46,282 nt of DNA from an uncultured Ectothiorhodospiraceae bacterium (GTDB lineage: Bacteria > Pseudomonadota > Gammaproteobacteria > JAABTG01): the NCBI GenBank assembly GCA_937867305.1, contig CALMKJ010000005.1, positions 1 through 46,282 of the forward strand, read 5' to 3'. The translations under genes were made by a program, and so were the position numbers. Below the pieces are notes generated by a model that saw only the letters and a list, made by a program, of their open reading frames with translations, was not told the origin of the DNA and searched no databases. Position 1 is the stretch's first letter, and each line of letters opens with the position of its first letter. This document shows positions 1,192 through 14,690 of this stretch, one piece after another.

Positions 1192-2259
1192 TTGCGCGCC
1201 TGGGCCGCGGCATTGTTGCTGGCGCCCGCGGTCGTTCTTGCGGGCGGGGCTCCCCTCGACGAGATCCGTCAGGCCTTCGTGCGCCACGGGCTCCACGCCC
1301 CCGATGGGGCGGCCCTCGAGGGCCTCGGGGCCTCCGGCCTCGCCGAGGGGCTGCGGCGCATCGACCCCCACGCGCGCTGGTTCCCTCCGGCGGACTACGC
1401 CCGGGAGCAGGCGGACGACGCCGGGGTCGGGGTCGGGGCGGCGCTCTCCCGGTGGGGTGAGCGCCTCGTGCTCGCCCCCTACGGGGAGGGGGCGCTCGCC
1501 CGGCAGGGCGTGACTTCCCCTGTCGCGCTCGTGTCCGTCGACGGCAAACCGGTGGCGGCGCTGTCGCTCCGGGAGGCGGCCGGGCGGCTCGCGGGGGCCC
1601 CGGGGAGTACCGTGCGCCTCGCCCTCGCGGCGGCGGGTCCGGCCGGGGCGGTGCGCGAGCTGACCGTGCCCCGTGAGCCCTACCGGGCCCTCTCCGTGGA
1701 ATCGGCGGAGGAGAGTGGCTCCCCCGTGGTCCGCGTGCGCGGGTTCGTCACCCGTGAGACCCGGACCCTGCTCGGCCTGGCGGTGCAAGGCCTGCCCGGG
1801 GCCCGGGGTCCGCTGGTCCTGGACCTGCGCGACTGCCCTGGCGGGGACCTCTTCGAGGCGCTCGACAGCGCGGGGCTGTTCCTGCCCGAGGGCACGCCGC
1901 TTGGCGAGACCCGGGACCGGGGGGGGCGGCGCCAGGCGTATGCGGCGCCCGGGGGTGCGAAGCTCCGGGGTGGGTCCGTCGTCCTCTGGGTCGGACCCGG
2001 TACGGCCAGTGCCGGTGAGGTCTTCGCCGGGGTGCTGCGCCACTACGGGGTCGCCCGCCTCGTGGGCGAGCGCACGTTCGGCAAGTGCAGTTCCCAGACC
2101 GATCTGCGGCTCTCGGACGGCTCGGTCCTGCGCCTGACCAATCGCGAGGTGGTCCTGCCCGGGGGCGAGAGCTGCAGCGGCGGCGGTCTCGAGCCTGACT
2201 CGCCCGTCGGCCGGGAGGAGCTGCTGGACGGGGCGACCCTCCTGCGCCTGTCCTTTTAA
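1192..2259 (+). CDS. S41 family (C-terminal processing protease-like) secreted peptidase
   Basis: A 355-residue protein with a probable TTG start 10 nt after the coiled-coil lipoprotein stop. It has a short signal peptide (about residues 1-18), so it should act in the periplasm. A PDZ-like region occupies about residues 75-160, containing ALVSVDGKPV. The tail-specific protease core follows: LDLRDCPGG (about 210-218), GTASAGE with candidate nucleophile Ser273, and GERTFGK with candidate base Lys298. The Ser-Lys spacing of 25 equals that of E. coli Tsp. It is shorter than typical CtpA/Tsp, mainly at the N-terminus. Being downstream of two lipoproteins suggests an envelope processing role, but that is inference. 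Confidence 0.82.
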   Translation: MRAWAAALLLAPAVVLAGGAPLDEIRQAFVRHGLHAPDGAALEGLGASGLAEGLRRIDPHARWFPPADYAREQADDAGVGVGAALSRWGERLVLAPYGEGALARQGVTSPVALVSVDGKPVAALSLREAAGRLAGAPGSTVRLALAAAGPAGAVRELTVPREPYRALSVESAEESGSPVVRVRGFVTRETRTLLGLAVQGLPGARGPLVLDLRDCPGGDLFEALDSAGLFLPEGTPLGETRDRGGRRQAYAAPGGAKLRGGSVVLWVGPGTASAGEVFAGVLRHYGVARLVGERTFGKCSSQTDLRLSDGSVLRLTNREVVLPGGESCSGGGLEPDSPVGREELLDGATLLRLSF

Positions 2260-2260
2260 T

Positions 2261-2361
2261 GGGGACATTCTGGTTTTTCCATCACTGCCGTGCCCTTGCC
2301 TCGCCCGGGTACCCGGGCATCGGGCGTGCGCTGGAGGTGGCGGAAGAACCAGAATGTCCCC
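2261..2361. repeat. REPIN-like imperfect palindrome
   Basis: Two arms with a perfect 15-bp inverted core, GGGGACATTCTGGTT at 2261-2275 and its reverse complement at 2347-2361, extend with a few mismatches to about 25 bp each. Exactly between them is a perfect 16-bp palindrome, GCCCGGGTACCCGGGC (2303-2318). The whole 101 nt is therefore one near-symmetric structure starting one base after the S41 gene stop. Two inverted REP half-sites around a spacer is the layout of a REPIN, a non-autonomous element mobilised by RAYT tyrosine transposases. No transposase is in the window. As RNA it could also end transcription of the S41 gene. Confidence 0.75.
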
Positions 2362-2369
2362 TTGGAAAA

Positions 2370-2401
2370 AGCAGAATGTCCCCCTTTTCCAGAATGTCCC
2401 C
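2370..2401. repeat. Two further REP half-sites
   Basis: AGCAGAATGTCCCC (2370-2383) and CCAGAATGTCCCC (2389-2401) repeat the core of the right arm of the adjacent palindrome in the same orientation, about 19 bp apart. With the palindrome this makes four copies of AGAATGTCCCC in 141 nt. The last copy ends 12 nt before a TATACT box ahead of leuC. Confidence 0.8.
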
Positions 2402-2448: not shown

Positions 2449-3858
<1,410 letters not shown>

Positions 3859-8104: not shown

Positions 8105-9203
8105 ATGCTCGAGCTGAACGCCGTCTTCGCCCGCATTCGCGACCTCCAGGGCCGTGTCCACGCCCTCAGGGGGTATCTTTGACTTCGATGGCAAGCGGGA
8201 GCGGCTGGAGGAAGTCCAGCGCGAACTCGAGCAACCCAACGTCTGGGACGACGTGCAGCGGGCCCAGGACCTCGGGCGGGAGCGGGCCCGGCTGGAAGAG
8301 GTGACCGGCGGGATCGCGCGTCTCGCGGGTGCCCTCGAGGAGGCCGGTGACCTGCTCTCCCTGGCCGAGGACGACCAGGACGAGGCCGCCGCGCAGGCCG
8401 TCGTGGCCGACGTGGACCGCATCGAGCGCGACGTCGCCGGCCTCGAGTTCCGGCGCATGTTCTCCGGCGAGATGGACTCCCACCACGCGTTCCTCGACGT
8501 CCAGGCGGGCGCCGGCGGCACCGAGGCCCAGGACTGGGCCGAGATGCTCCTGCGCATGTACCTGCGCTGGGCGGAGCGGCGCGGTTTCCAGGCCGAGATC
8601 CTGGAGGCGTCGCCGGGGGAGGTCGCCGGGATCAAGAGCGCCACGGTCCACGTACAGGGCCCCTACGCCTTCGGCTGGCTGCGGAGCGAGACCGGCATCC
8701 ACCGGCTGGTGCGCAAGAGCCCCTTCGACTCGGGCAACCGGCGGCACACGTCGTTCGCCGCCGTCTTCGTCTCCCCGGAGATCGACGACGACGTCGACAT
8801 CGAGATCAACCCCGCCGACCTGCGCGTCGACGTCTACCGCGCGAGCGGTGCCGGTGGCCAGCACGTGAACCGCACGGAGTCCGCGGTGCGCATCACCCAC
8901 AACCCGAGCGGCATCGTGGTGCAGTGCCAGAGCGAGCGGTCCCAGCACCAGAACCGGGACCACGCCATGAAGCAGTTGCGGGCCAAGCTCTACGAGATGG
9001 AGATGCAGAAGCGCCAGGCGGCGCAGCAGGCGCTCGAGGACTCGAAGTCCGACATCGGCTGGGGCCATCAGATCCGCTCCTACGTGCTCGACCAGTCCAG
9101 GATCAAGGACCTGCGCACCGGCTACGAGACCGGCAACCCCCAGCCCGTCCTGGACGGGGACCTGGACCCGTTCATCGAGGCCAGCCTGAAGGCCGGCCTG
9201 TGA
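8105..9203 (+). CDS. prfB: Peptide chain release factor 2, programmed +1 frameshift
   Basis: RF2 recognises UGA and UAA stops. The gene is two overlapping frames: 8105-8179 (25 codons, ending at CTT), then an in-frame TGA at 8180-8182, then frame +1 from GAC at 8181 to the stop at 9203. Joined, it encodes 365 residues, exactly the E. coli length. Skipping T8180 restores the frame. The stop-recognition tripeptide SPF falls at 205-207 and the catalytic GGQ at 250-252, the same numbers as in E. coli. Treating 8154 as the start would lose the real N-terminus [21 protein letters not shown]2 level is autoregulated: when it is scarce, ribosomes pause at UGA and slip. lysS follows after 16 nt, a common pairing. 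Confidence 0.97.
8168..8183 (+). promoter_or_regulatory. prfB programmed frameshift signal
   Basis: AGGGGGTATCTTTGAC holds all parts of the RF2 frameshift site. There is an internal Shine-Dalgarno-like AGGGGG (8168-8173), a 3-nt spacer TAT, the slippery codon CTT (8177-8179), and the stop TGA followed by C (8180-8183), a weak termination context. The tRNA on CTT shifts +1 to TTT. Confidence 0.97.
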
Positions 9204-9219
9204 GAGAAAGGAAACCCGC

Positions 9220-10713
<1,494 letters not shown>

Positions 10714-11978: not shown

Positions 11979-13193
<1,215 letters not shown>

Positions 13194-13262: not shown

Positions 13263-14690
13263 TCATCGGTCGTTCTCCGCGTCCTTGCGCCTTCGCGGTC
13301 CATTCCCTGCGGCCGGGCCAGCGCCGCCGCCGGCGCCCAGGTTGCGCAGGACCCCTGCGAACAGCTTGCGGTTCCCGAGGTCGACCTCGCTCACCGCGAT
13401 GTGCACGGGGAAGGTCGTGCCGTCCCTGTGCAGCGCCTGCGCCTCCCGCCCGATGCCGATGACCCGGCGCTCGCCGGTCTCCAGGTAGCGGCGCAGATGG
13501 CCGTCGTGCTCCTCGCGCCAGGGAGAGGGCATCAGCAGGTTGACGTTCTGCCCCACCGCCTCCTCGTTGGAGTACCCGAACATCCGCTCCGCGGCGCCGT
13601 TGAAGATGCGGATGACGGCGTGGTCGTCGATCACGACGATGGCGTCCACGGCGGAGTCCAGGATGGCCCGCAGGGTCCCCTCCTGCTCGCGCAGATTGCG
13701 CTCGGCCACCCGGCGCTCCCGGATCTGGCGCTGGAGCTCGCTGTTCGCGTGGGTGAGCCGCTGGGTGCGATCCCGCACCCTCAGCTCGAGCTCGTGCTGG
13801 GCGCGGCGCAGCTGGTCCTCGGCGGCGAAGCGCTGGCGCTCGGAGAGCTTCAGGAACCGCAGCATGAAGAGCGCGACGAGCGTGAGCGCCACCACGAACA
13901 GGCCCGTCTCCCGCCAGATCGCCTGCCGCGCCCGGGACTCGAGGCCCGCGTCGGGCAGGTCCGCAAGGAGCCAGTCGGTCCCGGGAACCGGCACGACCGC
14001 GGCGATCCGCGCGACCTCCCCGGGCGCCAGTTGCGGCTCGCGCTTGATCTGGTCGCGCGCCCCCTCGGCGCTCACCTCGATGACCCCGGACACGGATTCC
14101 CGGAGCAGGAGCAGTTCGTGGCGCTCCGGGGCGTGGCTCCCCAGCAGGCGGGCGACCACCGTGGGGTGGAAGCTGACGAAGAAGACCTGGCTCTCCCGGC
14201 CGGGGTGGTCGATCCGCGCCATCAGGTCGAAGTGGTAGGCCCCGGGCTGGGGGTGGATGTAGACGCGGTTGGGGTGGTCCCCCGCGGCGAACTGGGCGAT
14301 GTCCAGGACGCACAGGTCACCGATCAGGTCGTCCCCGTCGTCGACCAGGGTCTTCCCGGCCGCCGAGACCACCGCGAAGGAGATGCGGTCCGAGAAGTGC
14401 CGGTCGAGCCGGGCGGCGAGCTGCTCGCGCCGTACCTGGTCCTCCGGGTGGGCGGCCAGCTGGCCGATGAGCTCGGCCTCCTGCTCGGCGAACAGATGGA
14501 CGCGCCGGCGCAGCTCCTCGATCTGGAGCGCGATCTCGCTCGCGGCGGCCCGGGCCCCCCGCATGGCCATGTCCGTCTGGTGGGCGCGGTAGTCCCGCAC
14601 CCGCGACTGCCCGTTCCAGACGAGCAGCACGAGGGCCAGTGCCAGGATGAGGACTACGAACAGCCCCGAGGCTCGGACGGTTCTGGTCAT
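13263..14690 (-). CDS. Membrane PAS sensor protein lacking an output domain
   Basis: A 475-residue protein. Transmembrane helix 1 is at about 9-25 and helix 2 at about 263-281, with a periplasmic sensor region between them. A coiled coil (about 282-338) leads to one PAS domain (about 339-452). The PAS resembles FixL: EEHDGHLRRYLETG then VIGIGRE. His395 aligns with the heme ligand His200 of B. japonicum FixL, and Arg401 and Arg415 with Arg206 and Arg220, all at the same offset of 195. No histidine kinase, GGDEF or other effector follows. The protein ends in a glycine/alanine linker plus a tail encoded by a dispersed repeat, so it may be truncated. The start ATG 14690 opens a good signal anchor. 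Confidence 0.82.
   Translation of the reverse strand: MTRTVRASGLFVVLILALALVLLVWNGQSRVRDYRAHQTDMAMRGARAAASEIALQIEELRRRVHLFAEQEAELIGQLAAHPEDQVRREQLAARLDRHFSDRISFAVVSAAGKTLVDDGDDLIGDLCVLDIAQFAAGDHPNRVYIHPQPGAYHFDLMARIDHPGRESQVFFVSFHPTVVARLLGSHAPERHELLLLRESVSGVIEVSAEGARDQIKREPQLAPGEVARIAAVVPVPGTDWLLADLPDAGLESRARQAIWRETGLFVVALTLVALFMLRFLKLSERQRFAAEDQLRRAQHELELRVRDRTQRLTHANSELQRQIRERRVAERNLREQEGTLRAILDSAVDAIVVIDDHAVIRIFNGAAERMFGYSNEEAVGQNVNLLMPSPWREEHDGHLRRYLETGERRVIGIGREAQALHRDGTTFPVHIAVSEVDLGNRKLFAGVLRNLGAGGGAGPAAGNGPRRRKDAENDR
13275..13299 (+). repeat. Dispersed CTTTGCG-type repeat, copy B
   Basis: CTCCGCGTCCTTG then CGCCTTCGCGGT, 22 of 25 identical to copy A. It lies inside the last codons of the PAS protein gene and, read on the minus strand, encodes the tail RRRKDAEN. 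Confidence 0.7.

Follow-up and report, generated by a model that had tools for sequence, protein, structure and literature searches.

What is the repetitive DNA directly in front of leuC in this Ectothiorhodospiraceae genome, and how did it come to lie there? Within the 46,282-nt stretch analysed here (the window), a gene for an S41/C-terminal-processing-peptidase-like protein (1192–2259, plus strand) ends in a TAA stop codon at 2257–2259, the first repeat core begins 2 bp later, and 47 bp separate the end of the last half-site from the start of leuC, which encodes the large subunit of 3-isopropylmalate dehydratase (2449–3858, plus strand). We hold with high confidence that this DNA is a REPIN/MITE, non-autonomous and built from a pair of inverted terminal repeats, together with two leftover half-copies, and that a RAYT encoded on another contig, C86, probably moves it in trans. 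The preliminary description had placed it exactly between a gene stop and the leuC promoter; the position directly behind the stop codon stands, whereas a sigma-70 scan gave no leuC promoter, TATACT at 2414–2419 being the sole visible candidate. Positions 2200–2460 had no match in phage and plasmid collections, Rfam returned only sub-threshold miRNA chance matches, and a literature search with the exact 13-mers led only to unrelated human-gene papers.

The complete element, a REPIN/TIR pair of 101 bp (2261–2361; minus orientation relative to copy 4 on contig C196), is an inverted pair of GGGGACATTCTGG with a perfect 16-bp palindrome in its middle. The core GGGGACATTCT / AGAATGTCCCC occurs at 2261 (+), 2351 (−), 2373 (−) and 2391 (−), with no other exact copy in the window. 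The left terminal repeat, GGGGACATTCTGGTTTTTCC, spans 2261–2280 (+; 12-nt core 2261–2272), and the right terminal repeat, reverse complement GGGGACATTCTGGTTCTTCC, spans 2342–2361 (−; core 2350–2361). Between them lies the palindrome GCCCGGGTACCCGGGC (2303–2318), the predicted hairpin tip, of which the 101-bp subfamily described below shares CCCGGGYACCCGGG. Two extra half-sites follow, GCAGAATGTCCCC at 2371–2383 (−), a probable remnant, and CCAGAATGTCCCC at 2389–2401 (−), whose counterpart in an alignment with the sister species is the array end nearest to leuC. The layout first proposed, with four cores in 141 nt, two of them inverted arms around the perfect palindrome and two more in direct orientation, is thus present in full. 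The term 'near-symmetric' suits the outer 20 bp and the centre and does not extend to the rest: the outer 20-bp arms pair almost perfectly, whereas the middle arms are asymmetric, and because of this asymmetry an orientation can be assigned to the element. Ungapped self-complementarity of the 101-mer reaches 62/101 positions and another 101-mer of this GC-rich window reaches 64. Whole-element self-complementarity was therefore dropped as evidence of structure, and what stands out is the repetition of the core and not the overall symmetry.

The 151-nt region folds stably both as DNA (−36.2 kcal/mol, z −4.7) and as RNA (−78.6 kcal/mol, z −7.25), in each case beating 200/200 dinucleotide shuffles. 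The very stable RNA fold, together with one terminator-like match that overlaps the start of the element and the position of several copies directly 3' of stop codons, would agree with a hairpin that terminates transcription of the upstream gene or stabilises its mRNA, and that has spread by segmental duplication only. However, such a hairpin leaves unexplained both the 12-mer that flanks a RAYT in two species and the matched repeats that accompany RAYT homologs across phyla, and we consider it very unlikely; any effect on the transcript may be a by-product of insertion.

Within the 2.8-Mb host genome, the 12-nt core GGGGACATTCTG has 47 exact copies, 25 of them forward and 22 reverse, whereas the reversed control has 0. 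The core is far from unique; its uniqueness would have spoken against the original interpretation. With one mismatch allowed, the counts are 55 and 2. Two of the 47 cores are redundant, as contigs C4 and C6 of the host assembly (G000) carry the same repeat-bearing stretch in opposite orientations. In the second species of the genus the count is 24, three genomes of the same family lack the core, and about 90 relatives in the class have 0–2 copies each. An alignment of 63 distinct sites gives the consensus GGRAAY-GGGGACATTCTG-S-TTTTYC. Among neighbouring sites within 400 bp, counted separately per genome, 16 pairs in the host face inward (+−), 9 are direct and 1 faces outward (−+); in the sister species, 9 face inward (+−) and 2 are direct. 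The direct neighbours in the host lie 18–46 bp apart and lengthen one end of a pair, as they do in the window. The repeat in front of leuC is one of at least 16 genomic copies of a small, hairpin-shaped mobile element. The fixed spacing suggested for the inverted pairs holds for a five-element 101-bp subfamily, consisting of the window element and four copies on contig C196 (89 bp), and fails for all other pairs, which range from 29 to 349 bp. We also considered each single repeat as a covarying stem-loop and rejected this candidate: the signal is weak within the genus (mean stem 3.70 vs 3.40 shuffled, maximum 3.76) and moderate across the clade (2.07 vs 1.33 shuffled, maximum 1.74).

No RAYT gene lies within the window, as the preliminary description had stated, and the two Y1_Tnp genes of the host genome are both on contig C86. 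One of them (L033:12750–13523, minus strand) has core clusters on both sides, at 12537+, 12561+ and 12734− and at 13569+, 13594+ and 13749−. Its product narrowly passes the NCBIfam model NF047646 REP_Tyr_transpos (80.7, cut-off 80), also passes Pfam Y1_Tnp, and carries NHFH as its HUH motif. The second RAYT (C86 7725–8708) has no adjacent core and gives sub-threshold, weak HTH matches. In the sister species, the ortholog of the core-flanked RAYT (L072:4677–5342; 89% identity over the first 152 residues) likewise has repeat pairs on both sides, so that the core-flanked RAYT anticipated from the window exists in both species. Its predicted structure (mean pLDDT 89.5) finds as its best PDB match in Foldseek 4er8, the E. 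coli TnpAREP, a RAYT bound to a REP hairpin (PMC8266576). The host protein is 36 residues longer than this ortholog and contains a G/V/Q/S-rich repetitive stretch for which short DNA repeats code (L033 12950–13100). Inverted ends and short size would also suit a miniature derivative of some unrelated insertion sequence of the DDE type. Yet no target-site duplication was seen, and, among the loci examined in the two species, the sole transposase gene with cores beside it codes for a Y1_Tnp protein, which makes a DDE origin extremely improbable.

Around the RAYT on C86 (L033 11230–18974), seven repeat pairs are interleaved with genes or gene pairs: an AAA/DUF4143 ATPase, the RAYT itself, Fic plus RHH, an ORF without assignment, a large chain-length-regulator-like ORF, and a PIN gene with an AbrB-like ORF upstream. 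With the exception of the RAYT, the DNA of these genes has no match in the sister-species genome. It is conceivable, if unlikely, that the repeats delimit movable gene units, and that the RAYT would excise and insert single-stranded repeat-gene-repeat segments in the manner of integron cassettes.

The association of repeat and transposase extends well beyond the genus. A genome scan for RAYT relatives returned 574, of which 80 loci were kept, and the test set comprised 92 loci whose flanks were long enough on either side. Taking 12 of 13 positions or better as a matched inverted repeat, we found one at 51/92 RAYT homologs, while shuffled pairings gave 4.3 with a maximum of 10. The class of the repeat follows the RAYT tree (28 changes vs 48.1 shuffled; 0/200 shuffles as low), and this co-variation spans phyla. 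Several relatives also share the pair-RAYT-pair layout (L089, L092). An extra homolog search within the same phylum yielded no further repeat-flanked homolog. Near one RAYT unit we observed a second repeat-bounded unit of 0.7 kb (L137 285–1000), and another locus (L139) contains a duplicated repeat series. The commonest repeats among the homologs are GGGGACAGGCTAC and GGGGACATTCTAC, whose complements, GTAGCCTGTCCCC and GTAGAATGTCCCC, begin with GTAG; a CTAC end is present in 41/98 single repeats counted. The complement of the repeat thus starts with GTAG in many relatives and with [CG]CAG in the repeat family described here. At the level of single positions, RAYT residue 105 co-varies with repeat base 8: 25 homologs combine A with T and 24 combine S with G, and a single homolog departs from the rule in each direction. 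Residue 105 therefore tracks the neighbouring repeat base in 49/51 homologs, which represent 2–4 independent switches, too few for significance; two loci (L106 and L116) resemble separate switches. Residue 105 aligns with E100 of E. coli TnpAREP (number obtained by counting from W94-Q95), one of the residues listed as contacting GTAG (PMC6006769).

Comparison with the sister species indicates that the elements turn over. The insertion place in front of leuC is common to both species; the order of sites is + + + − in the sister, with 90-bp tandem units (part of the array is N), and + − − − in the host. The complete window element matches the sister array better when flipped (131) than unflipped (94). 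Copy 4 on C196 also occupies a shared site and has the opposite orientation in the sister (145 flipped vs 123). Alternatively, such opposite-orientation sites could reflect independent insertions at one spot. C196 copies 1–3 are absent from the syntenic place in the sister species. Copy 3, a 101-bp element (L034 9069–9169), lies within an ORF (8568–9662) without closing its frame, and the peptide that the repeat encodes is added at the point where the sister homolog has about 20 other residues. No clean empty site was found for the element; at this intragenic site the sister carries a different sequence of about 60 bp instead, and the insertion therefore came with replacement or later deletion. 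At C64, the host retains the right half-site only, whereas the sister has the complete element, which shows one route to a half-site. At the second C66 site both sister ends read GGGGACATTGTGG, and the ends have therefore changed together. In the sister leuC region (L075) and at one further locus (L076), upstream reading frames continue into the element, and the repeat would there encode the protein C-terminus. One stretch of 5443 bp is 99.98% identical between the two species (L038 1664–7106 vs L074 1–5443), which represents either recent transfer or MAG contamination; other regions common to both are about 78–96% identical.

These comparisons also bear on whether the repeat is a palindromic binding site, or an array of sites, for a host regulator or nucleoid protein that is kept in front of leuC for regulation and is not mobile. 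Its placement between a stop codon and leuC, the retention of that place in both species and the presence of cores in both orientations are compatible with such a role. The same element nevertheless recurs at many unrelated loci, even inside the coding sequence of the C196 ORF, is missing from syntenic places in the sister, flanks a RAYT, and has a core that is wholly absent from the three same-family genomes. A regulatory site is thus highly improbable as an explanation.

The signs of mobility are indirect and consist of the presence or absence of copies and their flipped orientation between the two species. The REPIN/MITE was very probably spread by the single-strand DNA transposase from contig C86, whose gene has these repeats on both sides. 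In single-stranded DNA, for example on the lagging-strand template, the inverted pair would form a long hairpin whose base carries GGGGAC. Once the terminal repeats are recognised by the HUH/Y1 RAYT, it would nick and rejoin the DNA there, and the element could then be excised, re-inserted or flipped. We infer the nicking, the single-stranded intermediate and the re-insertion from what is known of HUH/Y1 chemistry (PMC8266576). The half-sites were probably left when part of a former array was deleted or imperfectly rejoined, and are more likely to be remnants than functional units. Bertels and Rainey reported excision reads for SBW25 REPINs and regarded singlets as remnants (PMC3116915), a view with which the window half-sites agree.

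How should the element be classified? The core family, the pairing and the core-flanked RAYT bear out the REPIN architecture proposed at the outset; the single unit lacks the canonical REP form, and the 'spare' REP units are better seen as the remnants described above. As in the REPINs with RAYTs of Bertels and Rainey (PMC3116915), two inverted copies of a short repeat are spaced to fold as a hairpin of about 100 nt, the repeats are over-represented genome-wide in many copies and mostly as inverted doublets, the RAYT gene of the genome is flanked by the same repeat, and there are occasional clusters and singlet remnants. Unlike those REPINs, the repeats here have no GTAG-tagged hairpin of their own, and the copy number is modest (47 repeats). 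No GTAG/GTGG was found 5' of a self-contained hairpin: each core is flanked by short A/T-rich stems only, and a single repeat has [CG]CAGAATGTCCCC as its complement, so that the tag faces the inside of the pair. The E. coli REP/BIME system with TnpAREP (PMC8266576) has a homologous HUH/Y1 transposase (phmmer E 1.1e-05, and the best Foldseek match), but its repeats carry a 5' GTAG and a bulged hairpin, in place of the tag-like inner end [CG]CAG seen here. TIRtrons/TIRYTs are RAYT-like genes bounded by inverted repeats that share GGGGWSAS (Di Nocera et al. 2013, PMC3733652), and correspond to subclass 2.1 and part of 2.2 and 2.5 of TnpAY1 (Quentin et al. 2018, PMC6006769). Here, GGGGACAT is present on both sides of the RAYT, and repeat dimers and clusters occur elsewhere in the genome. 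GGGGWSA fits, whereas motif position 8 is T and not the C/G (S) of TIRtrons. Further differences are that Pfam recognises no C-terminal HTH in the core-flanked RAYT, which departs from subclass 2.1, and that the repeat complement begins with GTAG in many relatives of the host RAYT. The element thus has the testable features of a REPIN and fits the TIRtron description save for one motif position, and is most suitably assigned to the 'TIRtron' branch (Di Nocera 2013) as a REPIN/MITE, in preference to the canonical REPs with a GTAG hairpin.

With our work the little-studied TIRtron branch, for which the 2018 survey called for further analyses (PMC6006769), gains a repeat/RAYT pair that is well defined and specific to one genus. 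The shared insertion sites with flipped elements provide natural evidence on how such elements move, and the co-varying pair of repeat base 8 and RAYT residue 105 makes repeat recognition directly testable. The 2013 paper called the TIRs unrelated to GTAG repeats (PMC3733652); the relatives of the host RAYT suggest that the GTAG tag of ordinary REPs is also present in TIRtron terminal repeats, which, if true, would unite both types.
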